From assembly GCF_018873765.1 (NCBI RefSeq), contig NC_057926.1, positions 53,705,378 through 53,769,377 of the forward strand: DNA of 64,000 bases, given 5' to 3'. The position numbers and the translations under genes are program-made. The notes beneath the pieces were generated by a model, which had not been told where the DNA came from, did not search any database, and worked only from the letters and a program-made list of their open reading frames with translations. Of this stretch, positions 19,295 to 64,000 are shown piece by piece. Origin of the DNA: Telopea speciosissima. Taxonomy: Eukaryota > Streptophyta > Magnoliopsida > Proteales > Proteaceae. Numbering within the stretch: the stretch's first letter is position 1; each line of letters opens with the position of its first letter.

Positions 19295-22200
19295 TCATTT
19301 TGAAGAAACTTTGGCAGTGCAGTTTGAGAGAGATCGATCTTTTGGGGTACACACCAATGCCCTCTTCTGTAAATGTCTCAAGCTTTGTTCCATGCTAACT
19401 TGCACCATCTCGGCTAGCATCTTCTGTGCTTTTCCACCTCTATCTTCACCATCAATCTGAGAGACAATATTGTAGACAATGTTCTCTAGCGTGTCGGCAT
19501 GAAATTCAGTCCTCCGGTAGGGAGAATCTCTCAATAACCCCAACAGGGTCTGTGCTTTTGACTGAGACTTTGGTGTCCCCTGGACTGTGAGCTCAAGAAG
19601 ACCAGGAATGACACCTTCCCTAAGAATTGGTTCTCTATACCTATGTCGATCACTCTCGCACATTGTCAGAAGTGCACCAACTGCATGCTCTCGGCTTTGT
19701 AGTGAACCACTCTCTAGTACTTCAACCACTGCAAGCACTCCACCTTCTTCAGATGTCAATGCAGTTCTCCCCTCATCAAAACTTAACAAGGATTCTAAAA
19801 GCGCACTACATTTCTCTGCTGTTTTTGAAGATTTCCTGCAACTCTTAAGCAAGTTAACAAGCAGAGAGATGGCTTTTGCTGCAAGAATGATGCTGAGGTT
19901 CTCTGGGAGGGTAGAGAGATTGTATAATGCCATCAATCCATCTACCTTCGCTTGTGGACTTGCATCTCTGAGGATTTCAACAAGGAGAGGGATGGCACCA
20001 GAGGCACTGATTTTTGGCTTGTTGATGGCAGAAGCAGAGAGGGTTAGTAGAGCTGCAGTGGCATACTCCCGCAAATTGGAATCATTTGATTTTAGAAAAC
20101 AGATGAGAGGTTGAAGGGCCCCAGCATTCACAATTGCAACCTTATTCCTGTAAGATGAAAGAGAGAGTCACACCTTACTGAGGACAAACTTAAGGAAAAC
20201 AGGTGTATATACAACTAAATATCAAGTCTAGTTTCTCACTACAACAAGAATCAGCTAGCACAGTGAAAAGGGGAATGGAAGCTCTAAATAGTAGCAATTC
20301 ATACTATAAATTAAAACCATGTGGACATGAATATCAAGATATAATGTGTAAATTAGTGGAAGAAAGAAAGAAGAAACATGATATATTCCAACCATGAAGT
20401 TGAATTATGCACTTTAAAAACAAAAAGTTCTTCACAGCGGTTTTTTGCATGGCAAGCTGTTGACTCTATACCAGTTTTGAGCAAATTTTTTTAAGCACAA
20501 GAAATCTAAACATTGAATAATTAACATCATTCTGGAAATATGAAATTTGGTTTTATCCCTATTCATTCAAGTCCATTGGCCTTTGACTGTCCTGATGGAA
20601 GATGTGTCTGTTATGCAGATATCTAGTCTAAAGTTTCAAACAGGTAAACCAATTCAGGTAGAACATGTGTTTCACCATGTTAATCTGGATTTTCCATTTC
20701 AAATGTCTTAAGAATCTATACAGGAATTGAGGATTTAAATCATGCTAGTGCAATAGTAATCAGCCAACAACAATAAAAGAAGCGGAATTTTAGCAAATTG
20801 CCAATGTGGATTCTGATTAATTAGTAATGGCACCATCATACCTAAACATGTGTTTCTAATACTTAAAAATTCAAATGGTTATCACAATTAACACAACAAA
20901 AGGATAGTTACATCTAAGGGAAACTGTAATTGCTCAAGATATTTCGATGACTGCTCCTTGAAATTACTTTAAATGAAAAATCCATTCCAAGTCATAAGCA
21001 TTTTGCTAAACTTGTGTTTCATTCCTTCCCAAGGCACTCAAACATAGAAACACTTTTGCACGCATCTTTGTTTAACGCCGAAAAGATTAAGAGAGCACCA
21101 AAACACGACATTTCTCTCAATAAACCATGTGGTAGTTCTCTTTATTAGATATATCTTAATCATCCCAATCTATATCTAAGCAAGACAGACAGAGAAAATA
21201 GACTAAGGGGATCGGGCATATGAGTAAGTAAAATAACTGGATATGGGAACTGATTTACAGGATGAGGGAAACAGAACCTATTGAAAGGAAGGTGGTCTAT
21301 TGTCATGAGTTATGACAGTCCAATTCAATATATAGCAAAGGCTAGTACAGAGCTTGCAAGACTGTAAATCCAGTTTGAGTTGATGATATTAAATGGCTTG
21401 ACACAAAAGGCAGTTGGATCAGTGTTTTTCTTGTTAAGTGGGGAAATGTACTCTGTACTGCAGAATCACTTCCTTTGCTGATGATCATCACCTCTAGCGG
21501 TCCATAACACATAGATGGGTCTTGATATCTACATGAGTATAAAATATAACTAATTCATGAATATACAATAGATGGATCCCCTGCCTTGGTGCAATTGTAA
21601 GGTTGCTCCATTATCATCAAGTGGTCACGGGTTCGAGGTCGGGAAACAGCCTTTCTGCGAAAGCAGGGGTAAGGCTGTGTACATTATGACCCTCCCCAGA
21701 CCCCGCAGTGGCGGGGAAAAATCTAGCACAAAATTAATCCGATGTACTAACTGAGAATTATAAAGAAACTGTCTTATCTAAGTTTTGGACATAATGATTT
21801 TTCACAGATCAGGGACTAGGATTCAGATTTTGCCACTGTACCCCTCCAGTTGTGTTTCAAAAGGGCCTTCACAAGCTATGAGCATAGTTGGCTAGATCAG
21901 CAAAGCTAACCAGAAGCACCCACTGTAAACATACATCCTGCGGCATATTAATTGGCAAGGATCATGAATTCGCTCAAAAGCGCGAGCAGTTACCATGAAG
22001 GCATGAAGTAACCCGGCTACGGCTTTTAAAAAAATTAGTTGCCTAGCTATTCTACGAGAAACAGGGCAAGAACAATTGTTCTTTTTCCTGGATTATGGGA
22101 GTGGAAAAGAGAGGATGGGAAGGGGGGGGGATTACCCAGAAATCTGAATAAGATGAACAGATCAGAGTGTAACATCTGATTCAATTTACATAACCAACTG

Positions 22201-26133: not shown

Positions 26134-27345
26134 TACTATTTTGATTTTTGTTAATTAGGTTCAAAACTTTTTGGAAGATGTCTTCATTATTAGCGAATCC
26201 TGATCGATTTTCATAGTAATTTGGTTTCTTCTATTCATTCAATTATACTTTAGAAAAAAATTCAATATAAGTTATTTTTACTTGAAATTATATAAAAAAT
26301 GGGGACTGTTGAAACTGAAAAACTGTAATTGAAAAAAAAAATAATCTGAGTAGGGGTTTTAGAGTTGATCCATCAACTCATCTGTTGATGTTGATGGCCA
26401 TTTCATCCCTCTCCCAGCAAAAAATTGTAATAAATGCAAAGGGATTTGACCAGGAATCCACCGATCCTATAGGACTTACTTATTTATGGCAATCGACAAA
26501 TTAAATTAGCAAAATTTATATAATATTAAAATGAATAAATATAATTGAGATACGTGTTTTTATTGACACCCCTTAACATGTCAAATAATTTATAATTTTA
26601 CTTTTTCGACTCTTTTTTAGCATGGGCATGCAATGCACCACAATTCACCAACTGCACTAGGCAGCTGTTGGTGCTTTTCGACTCTTTTAATATAATACAT
26701 TTTTATTCCAATGAAAATAAATACGATTATTTCACATGTGTATTTAAAAAATGTACAAAACAATGACAGTTTTTTATAATAACATGATGATAAGTTCACT
26801 CTTAAATTATTTTTAAAACTCTTTTAATTTATACTATAACTTTAAGGATTTTTTTGGAACAAAACAAAAAGAAATTAAAAGAAATGATCAAATTCTAAAT
26901 AAAATTACAATTATGGGACAAAGAACTCTGTCTAGGAGTGTGGCCTACGGAAGCACTCCCATGACTCGCATGAGTCTATCTCTCTTCTCCCCAAATGGAC
27001 ACCTTTGACCTTTTATGAAACAATCCTGATAGATTGATTTTGATTGGAATCATTATTGGTTGTGGTCCATACACTCTCTTCCAAAAATTCTCTATTATTG
27101 TGTGGAGCAGATGTGACCATGGCCCAAATGATCAAGAATAGAGGAAACCTATGGGTCCTAGGCTCCTAGTAGAGAAAAGGTTTTTCGTATGTACTTTCTT
27201 GTCTCAATAGCTGACTGATAGGAAGAAGGAATTTGGACCTAATGTTAGTATGTTGCTTCCTTCCTATGTAACCTTGTGGGTCGCTTCCATTCGAAAATTC
27301 TACCCTCATAAATTCTGATCATATTCAGTTAAATGTTGTATAGCA
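26134..27345. other. Gene-free stretch with MITE debris
   Basis: A half copy of the 33,019-33,188 MITE family is visible at about 26,920-27,000 (CTGTCTAGGAGTGTGGCC). Otherwise nothing recognised. Confidence 0.4.
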
Positions 27346-27541
27346 TTGGGAGAAAGAATGTTAATTAGTGTTGTGCCTTGGCGTGTATCTGCATCCAGAC
27401 ATAGCCCACTGCGAAAAGATCGGTACACCCCTAGTCCTTTCCACCTTTTCAGGGGAGTGCATCGATCTTTTTATGCTGGGTTTTGCCTGGGCGTAGGTAC
27501 ACACCGCACCAAGCAACCGATTAGCATTCCTTTTCCCATAA
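27346..27541. mobile_element. MITE with GGGAGAAAGAATG ends
   Basis: The left end GGGAGAAAGAATGTTAATTA and the right end ATTAGCATTCCTTTTCCCA are inverted copies. The single long frame inside is incidental. Confidence 0.55.
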
Positions 27542-28312
27542 CATTTTAAGGGAAAAAAAAAATCTCTAAGCCACCATGGCTCATGTTATAGCTACAATAT
27601 CTTATTGGGTGTATCGGTTGATCGATTGTATAATGGCAGATATCGGTGTATATTGATATTGATATGATATCAACATAGATCGATGGTATCGATATCATTA
27701 GAGAGTAATTAAAATGGTTAAAAAAGCAGTGGTATCAGTACTTCTTAAGAATAAAATGGTCCAATTCGATCCAATAGGGCTGAATCCGTATCGGTATTGG
27801 TATTAATCGATAACAATATGACTACTGATACTATATACTATAACCATATTGGGCTATACGCTCTCACTTTATCTCTGCTTACATGAAATAATCTCACTAC
27901 TCTCCTATGTATGAAACCATTCCACTACACCTAATTAATGTAACACTTTTCTATGCTGCTTGCTCATAAACCTTTTCCCGTATTTTTTGTTTGGTAACAA
28001 ACTTTTCCCATTTTTTAATGCCTCTTTATTTACTAGGTTTCTAATGCCAAATTCACCTTTGCATTATAGTTGGAAAATCAAATTTTGACTTGGACGAATC
28101 ACCTGAGTCAAGTTAAAAATACACATGAAATCTGATCAAGAATCATGAAGACTCACCTAGGTTTAAGAAATGACCTGATCAATTCGAATTGGATTTTTAT
28201 TGACTCAAAGTTTGTGTCCAAATCATGTGAAACTCACTTAGTCTATTTTTTTATTGGACGATATAATATTCATAAACCATAAATTTGGTCTACAACTAAC
28301 TAGACAGAACCT
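27542..28312. other. Dispersed TATCGATAT-type repeat and flank
   Basis: About 27,595-27,850 is rich in TATCGGT / GATATCGATA blocks, as are 30,955-31,195 and 18,480-18,560. About 28,080-28,260 resembles the CGAGTCACCCGAGTC repeat of the aquaporin intron. No gene. Confidence 0.45.
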
Positions 28313-28568
28313 TATAATTTTGGGTTAATTCCAAATGCCCCCCTAAAAATGGCCAAACGTACAGTTGCCCCCTAAACTTTCACTAATGCAATATGCCCCC
28401 CTACTTTCCAAATTAAGTATCAATATAGTCCCTCCCGTTAGTCTAAGACGTTAAGTGATAACAGAACCTAGTTTTTGAAAATTTAAGAACCATTTTGCCC
28501 CTTGATAGAATAGAATGACAAAAATACCCTTGTTTGAAAAAAAAACAAAAAATAAAAAAATCCCTGCA

Positions 28569-28610
28569 ATTCATCTTCCCCAAATCGTTTAGGGTTTGGG
28601 GAAGATGAAT
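28569..28610. repeat. Perfect subterminal palindrome of the Pack-MULE
   Basis: The 16-bp arms ATTCATCTTCCCCAAA and TTTGGGGAAGATGAAT flank a 10-nt loop (TCGTTTAGGG). Diverged forms of the same sequence occur at about 352-392, 1058-1096, 1423-1448, 2490-2548 and 29,711-29,748, always inside a MULE. Confidence 0.75.
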
Positions 28611-29038
28611 TTTTGAATTTGAAATGGAACAACTACATCTGAATTGCAGCAAACAAAGAAAAGAAAAGAACTTTCAATCAAAGCCCTAACCTAGCTACAA
28701 CTGAATTGCATAAGCTTATCCGACGATCTGCCGACAACAAGTTACCAAAAAAAAAAAATTTAATCCAAAATTTAAAGGACAAACAGATACAAACCTGTAA
28801 ATAAAAAATCAGTGATGAGTTCGAAATTGAATTGCTGAGAGTCGCAAGTAAAGAACGTCGAGATAAAGATCATCTCGATCCGGGAGGTAGGACCCACTCG
28901 CGTCAAACGCAAAATAAAGCGAAATCGGATAAAAAATGGATAGATTTTGGAGTCCTCTTTACACTAATTTCATATTCAACAAAAAAAGGCGACTCTGTAT
29001 TATTCTGATCAAACCAATGGAGATTTAATCAACTGCAT

Positions 29039-29404
29039 CTATTTGGGAAGATTTGCAGCAAGGGAAAGAGATGGGGTTTGGGCCTTTAGGGTTCTCTTGC
29101 TCGAGAAGGGAACAAGAATCGTGAAAGGGTGAGTGAAATGTGAATCGATTGGGGTTTTGATGAGAGCGTCGAGGACGATGGGACTGCAGTCCTTGAGATC
29201 AATCTGGAAATCTTGGAGTTGGGGTTTGGAAGGGTTGTCAGGATTCCATCGGTAGATGGAGAAGGTCTTGAGCAAAGAGGTGTCTTGTGCCTTGGCTTTG
29301 ACATGCTGGGCTTCATCTTCGGAGGCTTGAGTTCGAGCCCGTAGTAGCTTTGAGGCTGGAGCTAATACCTTTGAAAGTCCTCCGCGGAACCGACCAGTCG
29401 CCAT
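29039..29404 (-). pseudogene. Captured fragment of succinate dehydrogenase iron-sulphur subunit (SDH2)
   Basis: From an ATG at 29,404 the frame reads [14 protein letters not shown], an alanine/lysine-rich stretch like a mitochondrial presequence, then [27 protein letters not shown] and VLDALIK. This is the N-terminus of mature plant SDH2 (complex II, mitochondrial inner membrane). After VLDALIK the similarity stops. The plant-type ferredoxin domain and all three iron-sulphur cysteine clusters are absent, and the frame ends about 40 residues later in unrelated sequence. An ATG 15 bases upstream (29,419) is also in frame. It lies entirely inside the Pack-MULE, so it is a transduplicated piece and not the functional gene. 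Whether it is transcribed is unknown. Confidence 0.85.
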
Positions 29405-29608
29405 GGCAGTGAGCAACAAGCACCATCACGGTGGACTCTGTTTGGGGATCCGGGTGCCATAACAGTGAGCAACAAGCACCAGAACAAGTTCTTCTTGGAG
29501 ACCATCACCATCGAAGGGTTTGCTTGTGGTCTTGTTCATTTCGTCTGCAACTCCTGGGTTCAATCCAGGAAATAGGATTTTCTTCTCTAATAAGGTAATT
29601 TTCCAGCA
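29405..29608 (+). pseudogene. Captured fragment of a 13-lipoxygenase (PLAT-domain exon)
   Basis: The plus strand reads FGDPGAITVSNKHQNK, FFLETITIEGFACG and LVHFVCNSWVQS, then in another frame GNRIFFSNK directly before a GTAATT donor-like site at about 29,609. Plant chloroplast 13-lipoxygenases carry this order in the N-terminal PLAT domain, usually with a KD-P stretch between VQS and RIFFSN. Here that stretch is lost with a frame change, and the sequence before FGDPG is also out of frame. The fragment begins immediately next to the SDH2 start codon on the other strand. An 18-bp block of this exon (AGTGAGCAACAAGCACCA) is present twice, at 29,408 and 29,464. Confidence 0.8.
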
Positions 29609-30003
29609 TTGGCTTTTCTTTCAAATTTTTTTTCTCGATCAGATTGATGTTGGTAAAATTTTCAACTAGTTTTCATATCCAATTGAAGATTCTAAGGTCA
29701 ATTGCTCAAGAACTCATCTTCCTCAAACAGTAAACGATTTGGGGAAGCTGGTTGTTGGTTTTTTTTTTTTGTTTTTTTTAAGGCAAGGTCATTTTGGTCA
29801 TTTGTACAATCAAGGGGTAAAATGGTCTATCGATGTTAAAAAATTGGGATCCGTTAGGTTATAACATCTCTGTCTAACGGGATGGACTATATTGATACTT
29901 AGTTTGAAAAGCAAGGGGGCACATTGCATTAGTGAAAATTCAGGGGATCAACCGTACGTTTAGCCATTTTTAAGGGGGCATTTGAAATTAACCCTATAAT
30001 TTT

Positions 30004-31660
30004 TATTTGTTAGTCTTAAAAAAAAGTAGAGTAATAAATTTGGTTCTCTCCGATCCTTTAAAAGGTTCGTTGGCCACCACTACTCACAGGAATCCACCTC
30101 CGGCCAACACAACTCACGGAAAGTCTGCCTCACGCACAGCTCCTCTACTCCTATACTCCCTGGAGAACGACTATTCTTCTATAAACATCCTCTCTTTTTC
30201 TTTCTTTTATTTATTAGCCATTCAAACTTATCCGAATGGAGAATGAAAACGGAAACGGAAAAGAAAAAGAAATAAAAAACACTATTCTGAGTTGCAGTGC
30301 TGCCCTCGTTTATCTTGGGAGAATGCACAACTCACGTGGCTGACCTCAGAATAGTCTAATCGCTCAACTAATACACACGTGGAGAGGTAGTTGAGAGTTT
30401 GATTGAACTCGCATTTCTCTAACGGTCCGAAAACTCCAGATAACAACAAACAGATGTACTCCAAGTTAGAGATGAGAAAGCCTGATCTAGATAGGTCACG
30501 ATCAAATACAGATATCCATAAAAAGATATGGATGAATTTTACATTCCTGACTTGTGTCCTCCCTCCCGCAGCAGATACAATTCACTAATTTCATTCTCAA
30601 CATGTCTCTCAATTGTCGTAGTTTCATGATTTTCATTTTCTCATACCTTAAAATTTATTGAATCTTCAAAAACCCTCATCAAGATCATTAGTTATTAATT
30701 TTTTTTAATTATTAATTGGATATATATTTGGATCCAATAAAATTTTTTTCTTGTAGATATCCATAAACGGATACCGTAAATGAATATGGATGTGAATCGA
30801 ATTTGGATTTTTGAATATTTGATTGCATCCTTAGTCTTAGGTGGGGGCATCTATCTTTGCACCAGTTTGAGGGTTGAAAATACCCACTTTCAATTCCCAA
30901 TAGGACCGTCAATGTAATAACTGTAAATAAAAGACCAGGATCTACTATTGCATCCATAGTTTGAGGAATTGGTATCCGATCAGTTGATTCGACCAATTTG
31001 TATCGATATTGGTAGAGATCGATACCAATTCTTGATTGTTATGAAACCGATCCAAGGTACTGATCAAGAATAAAAATATAAATAAAATCAATTTTTATTG
31101 AAATTTAGGGGTAAAACGGTCTGATCCGGATTAATATCGTATTAATATCGACCGAGACTGATACCAATCCCGATATTGATTACTGAAACCCTGACTGCAC
31201 TTGTTGGCTTTAGATGTGGTTACCCTTATTATGTAACATTTTATTTATTGATGGCTTTTCTTGTTGTATTTAGATTTATTTACTTGAAAAAAGAAGTGTT
31301 CTCTTGCTTCAAGGATTTTCTTGATGGATCGAGCTGTTGTACATTTTGACAAGAGTGAGGGTTGGGATTGAGTTAAACACCAACATGCCCTTCTAATAAT
31401 TTAGTTGGGTATGCAAATTTATAGATTGATGGATGCCAAAGCTTCGTGATTAGTTGTCAAATTTCTGATCAATCTGAGTTTACCAAGTGACAAAATAAAA
31501 ATTGAAAAGAGACTACTAAATAGGTGTGTGTGACTACAGTAGGAGCGCATGGATACATAGGAGAATATATTTAAATTCAAAATGAAATTTTAACATGTGG
31601 CGAATTTACATCATCCCTATACATGCAAATGAATTGCTACATCACTCTTTCAAATATGAT
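30004..31660. other. Gene-free stretch with a TATCGATA-type repeat
   Basis: About 30,955-31,195 is a copy of the GATATCGATA dispersed repeat. About 30,720-30,830 holds a fragment of the GGATATCCATAAACGG-type MITE. Nothing coding was recognised. Confidence 0.45.
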
Positions 31661-43649: not shown

Positions 43650-45054
43650 TTACTTTGAGCTTGAGCTTGAATTATTGTCTCTATGAGATGAGAGAATTCC
43701 ATCAATGGCTTCTTTTACTTGAGAAATCTCAGGAGCTTTTCCACCTTGAGCTGGCCAGAATTCATCAGTTGCCAACACCTGAACCAAAGATATAATTCTT
43801 ATTATTTTGGCTATCCTTATAAACTTGTTAAAAGGTTTAAGATCTTTTGAAAAATAATTAATTGAGTAATCACCTTCACTTGTAACTGAAGAAACTTAAC
43901 ATAGCTGATGGCCTTCTCTAGCATGGTAACTAAATCAACCTACATTAACAAAAACAATTATTATAATCAAGAAAGAAAGAAAGAGAAAAGAAAATTGAAA
44001 TTGGTAAAAGAACTAGGAATTAATCAAACCTTTGCTCCATTGGGTACTAGATCCTGCAATACCTTCAATCTCTCACTGATTCTTTCTCTTCTATTCTGAA
44101 ACACAATTGAGATTTTAGCATTAGTTTTTTTTTCAAAATCCCCAAATATGACAATGCAATGAGGCTTCAAATTGATGAGTCAAGTATGCTAGCAGATCAC
44201 CTTGGCTGCAATACTCTGAGGGTCCTTGGCTGGGGCTGACTTTTGTTTGGGCTTCTTAGGTACACCAGTGCACTGCCTCTTGAAAGCTTGCATTTCTTCA
44301 CCCTGCAACAACATTTTTGTTATAATTACTTCTATCGTAGTATAACCAACTTTTTCTTAAAAGCTAGCCGTTAAGGAGAGGGTGCCCAAGTACCTATAAA
44401 TCTTCACATTTAATAAGAAAGAAAGAGATAGAATCATACCATGGAAGGACGCTTGTGGGAGAATTTATCAGGCCCTCCAGACTGCTGAACACTTTCATCT
44501 GCATCAACAGAGCCGGAGTATAACCACCCGACTCGCTCCTCCCCAAGCTGAATACTATTAGCGGTGGTGTTCAACAAGCTATAAACACTTGCCATTTCAA
44601 AACAATTAGAGTCCTCGGAAAGGCGAGATTCGATGTTATTCTTGTCAATGGCGTCTGCCCAAATTGAGTACTCATCCCCTTGTTCAAAGCTAAGCAAAGA
44701 CGACTCACTTGGTCTCCCCCAATTACCATAACCAGTAGTCTTGAAGTTGATAACAGACTGAGCTTCTTCTGGTAGAGTAGTATTTGTTGTGCTTTCAAAC
44801 ACAAAGGCTGTGTTTTTTGAGTTGCTTGGACCAGAAAGAGAAGGAAGACGACTGAAGGCAAAATTCCTGCTGATAGAATCACTACCACTTGTATTATCTG
44901 AGCTCTCTCCTTCTTCAAATCCAAACAAACCTTGAGATGAAGGATCAGGAGCTCCAGCAGCTCCAGCAGCTCCATATAGGTTTCCATAGAAGGAACAAGC
45001 TTGAAGAAGTGCCATGTGTGAGTCCTGCGCTGTGTGCTCCTTCTCAATTTCCAT
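43650..45054 (-). CDS. RSL-type bHLH transcription factor (RHD6-like, subgroup VIIIc)
   Basis: A DNA-binding regulator; RSL proteins drive root-hair growth in Arabidopsis and rhizoid growth in mosses. Five exons: 45,054-44,440; 44,302-44,201; 44,095-44,030; 43,939-43,874; 43,778-43,650. They join in frame to 325 aa with GT-AG introns. The bHLH begins DPQSIAAKNRRERISERLKV (residues 233-252), crosses two short exons of 22 codons each (…QDLVPNGAK; VDLVTMLEKAISYVKFLQLQ), and is followed by the RSL hallmark VLATDEFWPAQGGKAPEISQ. The basic H/N-E-R pattern fits E-box binding. The N-terminal half is acidic and serine-rich, as in class II RSL proteins (RSL2-RSL5). The length is close to Arabidopsis RSL3 (about 328 aa, from memory). 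A TATA-like box lies at 45,163-45,170. The class II choice is inference; the RSL family call is strong. Confidence 0.92.
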
Positions 45055-49636: not shown

Positions 49637-50771
49637 TCAAGTTAGAGTCTTTGTCCAAACCATTCCATTCTCGTTTATCCAATGACAAACTTCGATTATT
49701 CCTGGGCCAAAACCCAACTGCTTAAAAGCAATATTGTTTGGATTCCAAGTTGATGTGTCATAGTGGCATGCCATGATCACATGATTCAGTTTCTTCCGAG
49801 TAAGTATATCAACTGCATATACTTTAACTTTATGGAATACATGGCAATAATAGACTTGAAATAGGAATGGCATACTATGACATAAAACTGGTGGTTCAGA
49901 GAGATTTCCATGGATGAGTTTCACAGATCCAATTGTGACATTCTCATAAGATCCTTCGATGCTCTTAGTACTCCATATGCGTATATGATGCCCTAATTTC
50001 TCAACAACAAAGTCGATGAGGTCCTCCGCGGAAGTTGCACAAGTGTATTGTTCGCCTCGAATGGGGCTTTTCTCACATATCATGAGGGTTTTTTGAATAT
50101 ACTCATCCATGTCTGAGTCATCCACCACACCAAAAATCTTCTTCAATTCCTTGATTCGAGCAAAGGAAAATGGGATTTTTGATACCAAAGATCGCGGCAA
50201 GAACGATTTGTATGATATTGGGTCCCTTAGATCTGGGATAGGCCTGATACCTCCTTTTTTCACCATTGACTCTCGGAAATAAGGCAGCCCCCCTTGGTTG
50301 GCAACTGATAGGGGTGTTTCATTGGGAAGATCATCGTATGTCTCTTTGACACCATTCCACTGGGCAATTGGTGGTAGGGTTTTGCCATTTGTTGTCTTGT
50401 TTACCAATGCATTTGTAGAACAAGCAACATTAGCCTGCTTACAAAATGAATGTAGGTGGGAAGCCAATTCATTTTCCTTCATAAGTTTCATAAACACTGC
50501 CACTTGATGGAGGTTTAATGGAGAAGCCTTTGCAGCTAACCAATGTGGAGGGTGTGGAAGACCAATATATTTTTCCCAATATTGTGTGAAGGCATTTTCA
50601 GCTTCAAGACCCTGCATTTTCTTGGAGAAAAATAGCAACCACATAAGAAAGATAAAACAGGAAATACAGTAACAACATTGAAAAGAATAGACTGATAACA
50701 ATAAACATCATTTTTCTTACACTAAAGAATGCCATTATTAGAAGGGCAAACAACATAATCGGATGTGTCAT
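49637..50771 (-). CDS. BURP-domain protein, PG1beta-like (copy A)
   Basis: Exons 50,771-50,721 and 50,611-49,637 join in frame to 341 aa; the intron is 109 bp. A signal peptide (MTHPIMLFALLIMAFFS) is encoded by exon 1, so the product is probably secreted to the wall. The middle (QYWEKYIGLPHPPHW, LAAKASPLNL, SFCKQANVACS) resembles the N-terminus of polygalacturonase-1 non-catalytic beta subunits. The BURP domain follows, starting YFRESMVK, with the full histidine pattern CH-X10-CH-X24-CH-X25-CH-X8-W (LCHSM, YYCHV, MACHY, EVCHW, VW). The FXXY repeats that make PG1beta proteins about 600 aa long are absent, so this is a short form. A TATA box lies at 50,861. A paralogue lies at 53,595-54,732 with about 88% protein identity by eye. 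The biochemical role is unproven. Confidence 0.92.
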
Positions 50772-53594: not shown

Positions 53595-54732
53595 TCAAGT
53601 TAGAATCTTTGTCCAAACCATTCCATTCTCGTTTATCCAATGACAAACTTCGATTATTCCTGGGCCAAAACCCAACTGCTTAAAAGCAATATTGTTTGGA
53701 TTCCAAGTTGATGTGTCAACGTGGCATGCCATGATCACATGATTCAGTTTCTTCCGAGTAAGTATATCAACTGCGTATACTTTAACTTTATGGAATACAT
53801 GGCAATAATAGACTTGAAATAGGAATGGCATACTATGACATAAAACTGGTGGTTCAGAGAGATTTCCATGGATGAGTTTCACAGATCCAATTGTGACATT
53901 CTCATAAGATCCTTCGACGCTCTCAGTACTCCATATGCGTACATGATGCCCTAATGTCTCGACAACAAAGTCGATGAGATCTTCAGCAGAAGTTGCACAA
54001 GTGCATTGCTCGCCTCGAATGGGACTTTTCTCACATATCTTGAGGGTATTTTGAATATATTCATCCATGTCTGAGTCATCCACCACACCAAAAATCTTCT
54101 TCAATTCCTTAATTCGAGCGAAGGAAAATGGGATATTTGATACCAAAGATTGTGGCAAGAACGATTTGTATGATATTGGATCCCTTAGATCAGGTATAAG
54201 CATGATACCTCCTTCTTTCACCATTGACTCTCGGAAATAAGGCAGCCCCCCTTGGTTGGCAACTGATAGGGGTGTTTCATTTGGAAGGTCATCATATTTC
54301 TCTTTGACGCCATTCCACTGGGCTAGTGGTGGTAAGGTTATGTTAATTGTTGTCTTCTTCATCAGTGCATTTGTAGAACAAGCAACATTAGCCTGCTTAC
54401 AAAATGAACCCAGGTGGGTAGCCAATTCATTTTCTTTGATAAGTTTCATAAATATTGCTGCTTGATGGAGGCTTAATGGAGAAGCCTTTGCAGCTAACCA
54501 ATGTGGAGGGTGTGGAAGACCAATATGCTCTTCCCAGTACTTTGAGAAGGCATTTTCAACTTGAAGACCCTGGAAATTCTTGGGAAAAAAAAAATAACAC
54601 CAAATAAGAAAGATAAAACAAGGAAATGCAATAACCACACTGAATTAATCAATGGATAATGAAAAGCATCATTTTTCTTACACAAAAGTATGCTACAATC
54701 AGAAGGCCAAACAACATAATGGGATGTGTCAT
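53595..54732 (-). CDS. BURP-domain protein, PG1beta-like (copy B)
   Basis: Same gene structure as copy A: exons 54,732-54,682 and 54,569-53,595, 341 aa, intron of 112 bp at the same site. The signal peptide is MTHPIMLFGLLIVAYFC. The PG1beta-like segment reads KYWEEHIGLPHPPHW and LAAKASPLSL. The BURP pattern CH-X10-CH-X24-CH-X25-CH-X8-W is complete (LCHSM, YYCHV, MACHV, EVCHW). Compared with copy A, the first 230 residues carry most of the differences, while the last 100 differ at about two positions and the matching DNA is almost the same. Its promoter lacks the MITE found in copy A. Both frames look functional. Expected to be a secreted cell-wall protein by family; no specific role shown. 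Confidence 0.92.
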
Positions 54733-56935: not shown

Positions 56936-59900
56936 CTAGGAATTACCTCTTTCAGTATACTGCTTAACAAGCCTTGCAAATGATGAGGACTTGATCTTTA
57001 ACAATTTGGTTGGGGAATTATATTCCATTATAAGTCCTGTTTAAGAAAAGAAAATATGTTAATCTAATTAGGAAATCACCAAAATAGGAAGAGAAGACAT
57101 ATTACCAAACTTCAACCGAACCCATTTGGTTGTGATGTTTCTTATTGCTAGCTACTAACCATTGTCAAGGAGGAGGACCATATCGGTATCAAGAATAGAT
57201 GTTATTCTATGTGCGATTGTGATAATAGTACACCCTGAGAAGTGTTGCCTAAGCGTTTGCTGAATTAGATAGTCAGTTGCAGTATCCACTGATGCAGTAG
57301 CTTCATCAAGTATTAACACTTTGCTCCTCTTGAGCAGTACCCGCCCTAAACAAGCTAGCTGCCTTTGACCCATGCTCCAATTTTCTCCATTCTCAGTCAC
57401 TACGACATCCACCATATGACAATGTGTTAGCTATTCAGGTTCTTATTTCCATTAACCTTTCTCCCTTTATTTTGTGTCAGAATTGTGGGCTAGGAGGTTG
57501 GGCTGTGCTCAAGAAGTTACATATCATATAATAAGAATTTTGGAACCATTGTGCACTTGTGCATGGATAAATTGATACTGAGAAACCTTGGAATAGAGTG
57601 AATAGGAGAAGAAACCAACCTGCACAATAAAGCTTTCCTTCATTCTTTCTAACTTTATCACCAAGCTGACATCTATCTAAAGCCTACGACACCAAAAAGT
57701 CCATATTAGCTTACCACATTGCTTGGTTATTCAAAACAAAATAGAATCATTAAAGATGAGCTAAGAGAAAGATGAAATGAACAAACAAGGGGTGCCAAGT
57801 GGAAAACATGATAGCAAAAATAGTGCACTTCCTAGGTCCCAACTAAAAGAATCTCTTTGGCCAAGATTAGCTCAAAGATGATCCTATACATCCAATGAAA
57901 TAATTTCAACATCTTAGTGGAAAATTTAAGAATGAATAAAAAATAAAAAGTAGACGACCTGAGCAAGGAGTTCATAGATAGATATGTCCTTCCCAATCAA
58001 TTGCGATGTGTTTGTTTTGTGTGTAAATCATCACTAAGTAAAAAAAATGTCCATCTTATATTTGTCACTGATTTAAAAAAATTCATCAAATGTAAAAAGA
58101 AAAAAAAACTCACCTCCCAAATCTCTTCATCAGTGTACTCTTCAAGTGGGTCAAGATTGCTTCGTAGAGTTCCTTTAAACATTGTTGGGTCTTGTGGGAT
58201 GACACTTAATCTTGACCGCAAGTCATGAAGGCCAATCTTGGCAATGTTGATACCATCTATCCAAATTTGACCAGCTACAGGTTCCAGCATGCGAAAAAGA
58301 GCCTGTACAAGCGTTGATTTACCACTTCCTGTTCGCCCAACTATGCCAATCTTCATCCCACCAAGGAAAGTGCATGTGAGACCTCGCAAGATAAGAGGAA
58401 GGTGTGGGGCATACCGGACCTACATACACATTAATTATCAAATTATGAAGTTTAGCACAATTTTATAGGAGGAGGAAAAATTGTCCACCAACATTAGGCT
58501 TCAGAGGGTCTATTTCATAAGACGAAAAAATAAGTAAAGAAATAACGACTTGAGGAAACTAGATTGGGAATTGCCTGCAGATCAACAATATCAATTTTTC
58601 CTTGTGATGGCCATTCATGATCTGGCCTATTTTCTTCTATCAACAAAGGGGGTTCACTAGGGATACATGTGTGTTGTAGTATTCTCTCAACAGATATGAT
58701 TTTATTCTCAAGACTGCTAAGATCCCATACGACCCCATGCATACTGAAACCAAGCCCATATGTGACTGCTAAGCCCAACACACCTTCAAGAGAAAAAAGA
58801 AAATAAAATAGATTCAATAGCATGCTTCATTGGAGTGATCAATATGGTTTCCTTAAAAGATGATTTTATATTATCTCAAGCCTCAACTTTTTACCAGGAC
58901 TGAGTACTCCCTTCAACATCGAGATCAAGAAAACCAAAGAGACAACATATGTAATGGATGCTAACATATCCATGCGGAAACATAACCACTCCATTGCACC
59001 AGAGAGATGAAATTTGGGCCGGAAATACCCATCCACTAGCTTGAGGTTTGTGTCCATAAACCTCTCTTCTTGGTTGAAACACCTGATTGTGGTTGAACCT
59101 AAACTAGATTCTGCAAAATGTTGTATAATTGGAGCTTGGCATACTCCGGTCAGACGTGATAGTTCTCGTGCTGCAGATGTATAGTATTTCTACAAGACAA
59201 GGTCCATAAAAAATAAAAAAATAAAAAAGAAATTAGATACAATGTAAGGAAAAAAAATATAGAATCAATATACAATTAGTGAGAAAATGACATGGATTTT
59301 TATTTATGAGGGATTTCTTATTGTGAGCTACTTATATTTAAATGGCTGATAATGACACTAACATCATGGCATTCTATTTTTGTTCTAGTTTGAATGTTTA
59401 CTATTTTCTATTTTTATTAGATATTGATTGAGTTATATGATTTATTTGCATGTCTACTATACCTCAAAAATTTTGCCCCAAAATTCTTAGATGAAATGTT
59501 TATCGAACATGAACGTAGCTGTATTTGAACTTTTTGTGGTATCCATTTTCTCTTTTTTTTTTTAAACCAAAATTTGTAATTATGTTATCAAATTTTTAAT
59601 TCAAGTAATGACTGCTTTTGTCTATATCAAATTAATCTAAATTGGCTAATGATGAATTGGACAATATTTCCTTATTCATTGGTACATGTTAGAGCAAAAA
59701 TGTGCATAGTGCAGCCTAAGTACTTCACATAGGCAAAGTCCAATGCCTACCATAGCCCACGCGCTTTACTGGGAAAGGGTTAGGGATTTGAAGTAAATAT
59801 TAAGAAAAGAAAAGAAGTGGAAGGAAAAGAAATATTAAAACAAAAAAAGGAAGGAGAAGATTTTCCATTGAAAATTGTCAATTACTTAATAATACGGCAT

Positions 59901-62900
59901 AGATTCCTAAGTGGTCCACCTAAATAGGCATCTCTTGACTATCCAAATATCTGCCACATGGTAGTTCTATTGGAGCACAAATTTTGTCGTTATGGATTGT
60001 CCAAATCACCTCCAATTAGTCTATCAATTTTGAGTTCTAATTGGTCAGGAAATCAACTTTCACAACTTTTGAAATCATCTTTAATTCGACTATTGAAAAT
60101 ATAGGGATAGTAATCCACAGATGGTGGACCATATATGGAGATTGAGTCTAAATCTTGACACATGAATAAACCAAAGAAGGAACAACTATCCAATAGTTGG
60201 TTTGACTAAAGCTGCCTCTACATGGCTTGAAATTGTTGTACTAAGACAAGGTTTTGCAATGAAAATTTTCCTTTCCTCCTTAATATTTAGTTATTGAGAA
60301 ATACTTATTGGATTGACCTTAACTAATGAAAAACCGTTTATCAATTTATCGTTTTAAAATTATCTAGTAGTTTATTTTCATAGTTATAAACTAATTTATT
60401 GTTTAACCACTGTAATCATGAGAAATTATTTATTAACTTTTGTTAGTTATAATCTTATTTTTAATATAAGATTCCATTGATAGAGCTACAAAGATAGTTA
60501 AGCGGACATATTTAATTTTTATCCACAGATATTTAAAATATTTTATGTATATCAAAAGCGAAACAATGTTGCATTAGGTGCGCACTTTGCAGTTTCATAA
60601 CTTTGGACTTGTTTGGTCATTTCTTCTTAAACAATTTTGATAAGAAAAAGAAACCATTTTGCATTAATTTAATGTGCGATTAGGAAAATGGATTTATTGT
60701 GATTACTCTTTATAAATTCAAGAAAAATAATAAGATTTAAGTTACCACCTTCACACCTAAGCATATATGCTTCCACCACTAAATCAATTTTGGTGTGAAT
60801 AATGCAAATTCAAGATTCCTTGATTGTGTGAATCAACTTGTATTGTGGCCTATTAACCATGGGAATGATATGGTTGAACTTGATTTAATCATGAAAAATG
60901 GAAGTGGTTATAAAATTACTTGGTACCAGATGCATGTCACAGACATTGGAATAAAAACCATTAACATCTGCCATGAAATCTGTGACATTACTGCAGTAGT
61001 TCCTAAGAGTTCCATGATTGAGATAAGAAGTTCTTCAATTTGGCGTGGAATAGAGGTATCAATTACACTTTGATCTATTGATGCCTGCATAGGAAAATAG
61101 AATTTCTTTAGAATTATATTATTTTTACGGTGATCAAATAAGATCATTTGGATCTAAAGAGTATTAAGGATATTTACTAACCCGATTTAGAATCCTTCCA
61201 CTTGGAGTAGAATCAAAAAATGACAAAGGAGCACGAAAAATACACAAATGCATTTTATTGAAGAGTAGAGTGGCTGTCTTATATCCAGTAGTTACAATGA
61301 GCATGATCCTTATAAGTTCACATAGAGATCTTCCAAGGGTCAAAGCAACATAAACAAAGATGATAGTGGATCCTCTAAAATGGGGTCTCATATCTTTTGA
61401 AATGGGAGTGGCCAACACCATCCAGTAACTGCTGATTATTCGGAGAAGCTGAAAAAGAATTTCTGCCAACAATATAAATGGTACAAAAGCCCCTTTATAT
61501 GCAGCAGTAACATACTTCCAGTATAATGAAAGCCTAACTCCACCTTTATCTCTCTTTTCTTCTTGGACAAGCTATCCTTTTGGCCCAACTGGTTCTTCTA
61601 TTTTGTGGTTTATAGGTTCTCTTTCCTTATCATCTTGAATAGAATTCTCGCAATGTAGCACATTATCATCATCTTTCTCCCCATTAACTAAATTATTCAA
61701 AGTAACCCCACATTCAATAGAATTAAATTCAGCTAAAGCTTTTCTATGTGGACCTACTAAATCCATAAAATCGGTGCCTGAACTAAGAATATCTTCGTAT
61801 TTTCCTGCTTGAGTAATCTTTCCATCTTTCATTACCTATTAAACAAGAGAAGGAAAATGGTCACTCTCATACCAGGTTGAAGGATTTAAAATCGGGAAAG
61901 AAAGATGACATATTCTCACCAGGATAAGATCAGCAAAAGATAAAAACTCTACTTGGTGGGTAACATAAATTACTGTTTTTGAACCTAAAATTCTCAACAA
62001 GCACTCCTGTCACAAAAAATTTAGATATTCATAATTAGTTACCCAAAAAGAATTTTCTTGGTTATATAACAGAGTCAAAGAGTTTTACATATGCTTTTTA
62101 TTTTAATTTTAAAAAATATAAGAAACATACATAAAAAAGCCAAGAGTTTTACATATACTTTGTATTTTAATTTTAAAAAAGATAAGAAACATCAAACAAT
62201 AGATTTTATGTAATAACATGCATCACTAAGTATTATGTGTTCATCAAGCAAAGATTTAGAAGTGAAGGTCAAAGAGCAGCTACCTTAAAAAGATGAGTTC
62301 CTGTGTGAGCATCAACAGCACTAAAAGGATCATCAAGCAGATATATATCAGCATCATGGTACAAAGCACGTGCAATCTGGATTCTTTGTTTTTGCCCACC
62401 ACTGAGGTTGACCCCTCTGTCCCCTATGATAGTCTGGTCTCCAAAGGCTAATAATTCTAGGTCCTTCTTCAATGAACATGCTTCAATGATCATTTCGTAC
62501 CTTTCTTTGTTCATTTCTTTACCAAACAATATGTTGTCTACTATCTTGCCACTCTGTATCCAAGGAGATTGTGGAACATAGGCCTTTGTTCCATTTAACC
62601 TAATAGTTCCAGATACCTTTGGCACTTCCCCCAATATACATGAAATTAGGCTTGACTTGCCTGACCCAATAGAACCACAAACAACCACTCTCATACCCCG
62701 GTACACTCGAAAATTAATATCTTTTAGTGTAAGATTAGGGGATTGAAGGTCCCAAGAGAAACTCCCATTGACTATCTCAATTGCAACGTTGACACAATCT
62801 CTTGGAAGCTTTTGTACTATATTTGGATGAAGATTATCGAGACAGAGGAATGAGGTGATCCTGTTTAGGGAAACTTTAGTCTGAACTACATAAGAAATTG

Positions 62901-64000
62901 TGTCTGGTAGATTATAAATAGGCCCTCGTAATATCTCAAATGTTGCAAGTGCAGATAGAATCTTCCCCGATTCTAGTGGAATTCCCATAAGCACACAAAA
63001 GCCAAAAGTAACCATGGATACAAACATGGGGGCAGACATGTAAACAGAGCCAATTAGAGCTGATGTATAAAGTACCTTTTTTAGCCATCTTGTTTCCAAC
63101 TTCCTGAGCTCAATTATCTTGTCTAAGAACTTCATCTCCCAACCATGGAGCTTGAGAATTCTCATATTCCTCAGAGCTTCAGATGTCACCTTCATCCGTT
63201 GATCCTTTGAATCCATCAATTCCCCTTGAAAAGTTCCCTGGAGTTTTCCTAGTGGAACATTTGCTAACATCAAAATTATTGTGGCAACAAAAGCTACAAG
63301 TGAAGCGAGCCTAAGGCTCTTGTATAAGATCAATAGTGCTAGAACAATCTGAAGAGGCACCCTCCATATATCATGTAAGTACCAACTGAAGAAGCCAATC
63401 CTTTCAACATCTACACTTATCAAATTAATGTTCTCTCCACTAGAGTGGTCCCGCTTTGATTGGCTTGAAAGCCTGAGACCCTTCTTATAGATTATTGCTA
63501 ACAAGGCAGCACGGACCCTATTTCCCATCTTTCGCAATTGAAAGAACAAGTGCCTCTCTGAAAGGCTCCTTATGAGTTTTGAAAGAAAGAAAATAAACAC
63601 TAGTATATAACCTTTATATTTTAGTTGGTGAGGGCTATTAAGATACTGAACAAAGGCGTCAATAAGATATGGTCCAATATAAGAAGCCAATGTGTGTACA
63701 ATGGAGAATAGAGCCGTCCATAGAATTTCTTTCCATGTTGAGAGAATCAATGCCTTCACCAGCTTAAGTATGCTTATATGATCAACATTACCCTTATCAT
63801 TACCATCAGATTCAAGTTTATTTTTGAAACAAGCAAAGACCACCTTAGCACTATCATAATTGGCAAGTTGAGGAACATCATCAAGGTCCAGTGTTTTTGT
63901 ACACCCGAGTGCAAGCAAAGGATTCATCCAAGAGAAAGTAAAAATACTACTAAGATTTGCATTTGCATAAGGAGTTACAGTCTCTCCACTGAAATTTGAT
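56936..64000 (-). CDS. ABCC-type (MRP) transporter, 5' end outside window, one in-frame TAG
   Basis: Plant ABCC proteins pump glutathione conjugates and similar anions across the vacuolar or plasma membrane. Ten exons: 64,000-62,284; 62,006-61,920; 61,835-61,182; 61,084-60,920; 59,189-58,895; 58,783-58,575; 58,419-58,114; 57,683-57,620; 57,399-57,160; 57,036-56,936. They join in one frame of about 1,278 codons. About 230-240 N-terminal residues (TMD0) lie outside; the window opens before [21 protein letters not shown]1: Walker [10 protein letters not shown] (about 62,663), VPQSPW, signature [30 protein letters not shown]2: GRTGSGKST (about 58,325), VIPQDP, signature [23 protein letters not shown]. 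All catalytic motifs are intact. A TAG at 61,572-61,574 interrupts [14 protein letters not shown], where relatives have glutamine, so the product would stop after NBD1. The intron after 58,575 has a GC donor. Closest family by memory: the ABCC3 clade. The 1.7-kb intron 59,190-60,919 holds nothing recognisable. Confidence 0.9.

Follow-up and report, generated by a model that had tools for sequence, protein, structure and literature searches.

A Pack-MULE of Telopea speciosissima with pieces from at least five sources, and the probable order of its assembly

The available text of two publications on Mutator-like elements (MULEs) and related transposons still leaves open the mechanism by which MULEs pick up pieces of genes (PMC3310237, PMC13317346). 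A 64,000-nucleotide stretch of Telopea speciosissima DNA (NC_057926.1, positions 53,705,378 to 53,769,377), here called the window, contains an element that bears on this question. A first-pass annotation, made from the letters of the window, described it as a Pack-MULE holding a fragment of SDH2, a gene of mitochondrial respiration, and a lipoxygenase (LOX) fragment in opposite orientation, and we investigated how these pieces came to lie between one pair of terminal inverted repeats (TIRs). The results very probably identify a non-autonomous Mutator-like Pack-MULE that was assembled by stepwise captures and by replacement of its left end, and that spread by transposition.

Ends and interior of the window element

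The outer ends of the two TIRs are identical at 45 of 51 nucleotides, whereas the best of 200,000 random 51-nt pairs drawn from the window, element ends excluded, reached 31/51. Each TIR is about 290 nt long, with 79% identity across ~296 aligned columns; the TIRs of a MULE need not be identical at insertion. Both flanks carry TATAATTTT without a mismatch, for which the chance is ~1e-5 given the base composition. Searching the genome with the TIRs recovered at least 40 places matching the 301-base query at 251 or more positions, a lower bound (40 of 1,100 candidates scored) that includes cases in which both ends belong to one element. The long inverted ends, the exact 9-bp target-site duplication (TSD) and the recurrence of the ends elsewhere are thus borne out, as is the Pack-MULE with SDH2 and LOX pieces in opposite orientation.

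Captured pieces make up nearly the whole interior (Table 1); transposase is absent, and the longest open reading frame (ORF) is a 126-aa SDH2 frame. Sources could be assigned to the whole interior except 28637-28644 and 29030-29040. At least five sources are present, in place of the two fragments first recognized.

Table 1. Features of the window element and its target site (window coordinates)
Feature	Position	Strand	Remarks
Window element	28322-29994		TIR-bounded, TSD-flanked
Left target-site duplication, TATAATTTT	28313..28321	.	9/9 against right copy
Left TIR	28322..28616	+	Groups with L004 and L006 TIRs, not with the right-TIR lineage
Inner flank	28617..28643	+	L004-like up to ~28636 in alignment
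Piece A	28645..29000	+	85% to C7:59829958-59830337, taken as donor
Piece E stub	29000..29029	+	25 nt common with L015/L016; 30 nt at 93% to C1:86.41M
Piece B, dispersed repeat fragment	29041..29160	-	C1:1700928, C8:52709512, C3:63387332
SDH2 N-terminal fragment	29158..29404	-	Start codon to '...VLDALI(K)'; donor C3:4801
26-nt direct repeat, copy 1	29400..29425	.	92% to 29456-29481; at SDH2/LOX junction
LOX piece	29405..29594	+	Duplicated bit, 3' part of PLAT-domain exon from ~29426, to GT donor
LOX intron start, joined to right TIR	29595..29711	+	From alignments
Right TIR	29706..29994	-	Groups with L015/L016 right TIRs
Right target-site duplication, TATAATTTT	29995..30003	.	Exact

Sources of the captured pieces

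The SDH2 piece is 93.5% identical over 247 nt to the C3:4801 gene. A PDB sequence search matched its peptide to a solved SDH iron-sulfur subunit (aa 35-89, E 2.7e-15); a Pfam scan of the peptide returned zero families at E<=1. In the C3:4801 gene, the frame continues beyond the point at which the piece breaks off, through the Fer2_3 domain. Of the sites fixed among the eight SDH2-LOX elements defined below, 24 side with the C3 gene and 2 with a C8 paralogue, and the capture clade has moderate support (89/89). Sequence comparison thus identifies the C3:4801 gene as the likely donor. An SDH2 fragment had been annotated at 29039-29404, and the protein search of that interval upheld its identity, while limiting SDH2 homology to 29158-29404, since 29041-29160 matches another family of loci. 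An SDH2 intron as the origin of 29041-29157 was ruled out, as the frames of the C3 and C8 genes both run past that point.

The peptide of the LOX piece matched the Pfam PLAT domain (E 1.5e-7) and plant lipoxygenases, as expected from the annotation of 29,405-29,608. Its nearest gene, at C7:65.19M, has lipoxygenase-domain exons beside it; the capture clade has moderate support (84/91, bootstrap unsettled). The donor may be a 13-lipoxygenase, judging from an N-terminus that reads as a transit peptide. The donor genes of the SDH2 and LOX pieces sit on other chromosomes. Relative to the donor gene, the LOX exon piece has a 14-bp deletion and a frameshift, and about 115 nt of the next intron follow it. 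Gene-like LOX homology starts near 29426, with 29400-29425 representing a duplicated bit. The 26-nt repeat marks the SDH2/LOX junction; the 56-bp unit is absent from the copies at C2:63.62M and C2:56.38M. The PLAT exon fragment that had been annotated therefore exists, but it comprises the 3' end of an internal exon together with intron sequence and is not a start region. Since the LOX piece is an internal exon, the two start regions do not lie back to back, as had been thought; only that of SDH2 lies at the junction.

Among the 40 candidates scored out of 43, piece A occurred only in the six copies of the window form and at C7:59829958. A search with one ORF adjoining the latter locus found no protein family. 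Beside this locus, a stretch at L017:2-382 (-) is COX1-like (E 1.7e-7, below the Pfam cut-off) and perhaps reflects an insertion of mitochondrial DNA. Piece E probably came from C1:86.41M, near an ORF with an LRAT domain; on the other side of this likely donor, L062:2285-2791 (-) reads as a reverse-transcriptase-like ORF. Piece B matches the three related loci of Table 1 along its length, and ~57 bp of it also occur inside a 1.5-kb repeat that starts with TAGGGGTGTCAATA and ends with TTGACACCCCTA. This repeat is found at L041:1073-2597 and similar places (L039-L045), those in L042-L045 being 97-99% identical to that in L041. In five copies, reading of the flanks revealed apparent 8-bp duplications (L041, L042, L043 and L045; 7/8 in L039). 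From its sequence, the repeat looks like a young, non-autonomous, hAT-like family.

Copies, relatives and the order of capture

The layout of the window element recurs at C1:83.39M, C9:51.87M, C10:36.46M, C2:9.70M and C2:63.62M, giving six copies. Five cover the interior across 1-1078, and the C2:9.70M copy covers 9-990 and a short end. K2P distances among the six are 0.048-0.071 (mean 0.059, 15 pairs), and the flanking bases differ between copies. Together with C1:20.87M (L015) and C2:56.38M (L016), these copies make up the eight SDH2-LOX elements. The TSD is exact in four of the eight, namely the window element, C2:56.38M, C2:63.62M (within an A9 run) and C1:20.87M (a T9 run), and matches at 8/9 positions in C1:83.39M and C10:36.46M. 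For C2:9.70M, it is 3/9 as extracted and 8/9 if one extra base is assigned to the element; for C9:51.87M, it is 7/9, within a T run.

L015 and L016 carry piece E, a longer SDH2 piece and a LOX exon without the 14-bp deletion; the SDH2 extension of L016 comprises 56 nt at 98% identity to C3:4801150. Since the E stub of the window type extends a few bases past the E/SDH2 junction of L015 and L016, these elements are cousins and not direct ancestors. Direct descent of the window type from them was ruled out, their junction being shorter in E. In L018 (C9:34.79M), LOX sequence from its start region is joined to a TIR remnant, and the border between LOX and the right TIR is the same as in the window type. 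L023 (C1:64.96M) and L024 (C5:66.39M) have a shorter LOX piece between TIRs. L018:430-2090 is itself a composite MULE that contains a second, internal TIR remnant besides its long LOX piece and represents a separate line of payload growth; one stretch resembles class I glutamine amidotransferase (E 0.0018, under the Pfam cut-off).

These relatives suggest the following order of events. A LOX piece, from the start region into an intron, would first have been caught between two TIRs; both of its borders survive in L018, which would since have lost some parts and gained others. In a second lineage, represented by L015 and L016, piece E and the SDH2 start region would then have been added on the left-TIR side of a shortened LOX piece. 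The window type would have received a TIR of another MULE lineage as its left end, followed by piece A, with the E stub left behind; piece B would have taken the place of the SDH2 tail, and LOX would have lost 14 bp. This form would finally have reached the six sites at which it is now present, probably moved by MULE transposase supplied in trans. MULE transposase domains are abundant in the genome (at least 150 matches over the cut-off, with 150 of 828 candidates scored); none was linked to the TIRs of the window element.

Origin of the left end

The left-end replacement was examined in a tree of 32 TIR rows, in which 12 of the 29 inner branches were unresolved. The six left TIRs of the window form joined both TIRs of L004 and that of L006 (support 98/96), whereas the six right TIRs joined the right TIRs of L015 and L016 (99/98). 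Forcing all eight left TIRs together lowered lnL by 105.5 (p-AU 1.2e-29, which is only indicative because the tested group was chosen in view of an initial FastTree tree). The mean identity of the six left TIRs was 0.92 to the L004 TIRs, 0.80 to the left TIRs of L015/L016 and 0.80 to the six right TIRs. The TIRs of L023 and L024, which carry LOX, were nearer to the left type of L015/L016 (0.86-0.91) than to the six left TIRs (0.78-0.84), and for this reason we take the left end of the window type to be the derived one. Since its left TIRs group with a MULE lineage different from that of its right TIRs, the window type qualifies as a hybrid.

L004, taken together with L070, represents a 4.75-kb element at C3:63603985-63608734, both TIRs of which are of the window's left type. 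This element, the one long relative that the analysis covered, was considered as an autonomous partner and rejected: no Pfam match to a transposase was obtained among 10 of its 12 ORFs of at least 80 aa, and one ORF is TIC20. The fragment of this chloroplast import gene lies at L070:2465-2758 (-) (Pfam E 1e-19). The L004 element is therefore itself of the Pack type, so that at least one gene-carrying element belongs to the lineage that donated the left end.

We lean toward a hybrid interpretation of the window element, in which each end of this MULE derives from a different TIR lineage and the chromosomal piece A lies at the seam. The switch could reflect a fusion of two neighboring elements that took in the chromosomal stretch separating them, a route modelled for Pack-CACTA elements, or alternatively template switching during repair. 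If the hybrid interpretation is true, Mutator-like elements also capture genes by the fusion route put forward for Pack-CACTA, and payloads are extended beside the left end, with older pieces surviving as stubs. Gene conversion restricted to the TIR, in which an L004-like TIR overwrote the left TIR without any fusion of elements while A and B were captured separately, is an unlikely but serious competitor. It accords with the end of the L004-like similarity near 28636, shortly inside the left TIR, and with the paucity of TIR-like sequence within 1.5 kb of the piece A locus, where a single 22-nt match (in L017) was detected. Against it, the six copies that changed TIR type are also those in which A replaced E, and the two changes share a border, a coincidence for which one event would be the simpler explanation.

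Silencing, coding potential and constraint

The fragments might instead act as a silencing locus, transcripts across them being antisense to one parent and feeding small RNAs directed against SDH2 and LOX. By the layout of the pieces, SDH2 antisense RNA would come from a plus-strand transcript and LOX antisense RNA from a minus-strand one, and the window copy shares exact 21-mers with both parents (22 with SDH2 and 58 with LOX), as do the other seven copies (35-81 and 45-96, respectively). Four control stretches of the window, compared with seven parent loci, gave 0 such 21-mers, bar one single match. Given that read-through in either direction would yield antisense RNA of one parent and that exact 21-mers are shared, silencing of a parent is conceivable. 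We nevertheless consider it improbable, as SDH2 21-mers are fewer in the window copy than in any of the other seven copies and zero Rfam families reached the gathering score in 27000-31500. Methylation decay was too weak to serve as a sign of silencing, C-to-T changes in SDH2 affecting 10/140 CpG, 20/189 CHG and 34/616 CHH sites in seven copies.

Production of a protein from the SDH2-derived frame (121 aa from the ATG, comprising the SDH2 start and a tail from piece B), as expected of a new coding gene, is very improbable. The SDH2 part of the frame is open in the window and C10:36.46M copies, and comparison of the SDH2 pieces with the donor gene gives omega values under 1 (0.11-0.52). However, the frame is broken in six of the eight copies, by stops in five and by a frameshift plus a lost start in one, and pooled pN/pS among copies was 0.96 (21 pairs). 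The latter value was obtained from the seven copies with full-length SDH2, C2:56.38M being excluded for its length; another treatment of stop codons gave 0.92 for the element pairs. These seven copies contain 9 stops, whereas placing the same changes at random would be expected to give ~5.4. The SDH2 piece thus shows no visible protein constraint in its evolution among copies. Since omega against the donor is 0.11-0.52 and not 1, simple neutrality since capture from exactly this C3 gene does not fit; the piece may have been under constraint for a time, either before its capture or shortly afterwards, or it may derive from a donor copy outside the sample. The payload would have no protein function today, and for the host the window element looks like a mostly neutral remnant.

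An origin without any transposon, with inverted ends flanking an old gene duplication by coincidence, has next to no probability in view of a TIR match far over chance, its recurrence at at least 40 scored places and the 9-bp duplication.

Relation to known elements

Pack-MULEs of rice, maize, tomato and Arabidopsis likewise have long TIRs, a TSD of 9-11 bp and captured host fragments, according to the available part of PMC3310237, and the accessible text of PMC4858842 describes several sources per element and mostly neutral evolution. The latter source lists, for Oryza sativa japonica, 264 MULE-derived genes with at least two parents versus 1186 with at least one. Elements joining pieces of two genes in divergent orientation had been called rarer; these counts contradict this for multi-source elements as such, and no published counts were found for divergent orientation of captured pieces. 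The consulted part of PMC8903248 describes multi-locus Pack-TYPE elements, often in maize, and in its rice set a significant multi-locus share (19%) only for Pack-Mariners. Unlike in known Pack-MULEs, the capture order of the window family is partly readable from surviving relatives, and the two TIRs of the window element group with different lineages.

The hybrid Pack-CACTA/Pack-TYPE model also joins one transposon's end, chromosomal DNA and another's end; in the available text (PMC13317346, PMC8903248) it is worked out for CACTA, with a compatible maize PIF cluster among the examples, whereas the window element is a MULE. FoSTeST and gap-filling models of animal Pack-TIRs similarly build the payload by template switching with microhomology; the available text (PMC8277862) argues them for animals, and for the window element the evidence consists of junction anatomy. 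L018, with its internal TIR remnant, recalls tomato MULEs with multiple TIRs, from which the window element differs in its single TIR pair.

As multi-source MULEs, Pack-TYPE elements and fusion or template-switch models are documented, the kind of element found here is already known, and the window element illustrates a known process in well-preserved form. PMC titles and opening lines on Pack-MULEs in Proteaceae, on stepwise or sequential capture and on Mutator-like hybrids did not describe the window family. Its parts of interest are the readable assembly order and the lineage switch at one end. Since several assembly stages of the family coexist with their likely donors in one genome, the order of events and the switch of terminus are directly testable.

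Surroundings of the element

Among ORFs of at least 130 aa, the window element is flanked by an ARM-repeat ORF of the plant U-box type (19295-20131) and, on the other side, by a 206-aa ORF (44434-45054); BURP-domain ORFs start at 49.6 kb. Those at 49637-50701 and 53595-54638 (-) are neighbors and probably a tandem duplicate. ABC transporter ORFs at 57997-63927 (-) are ABCC-like by reading of the sequence, and Pfam bore out transmembrane and ATP-binding parts for 62269-63927.
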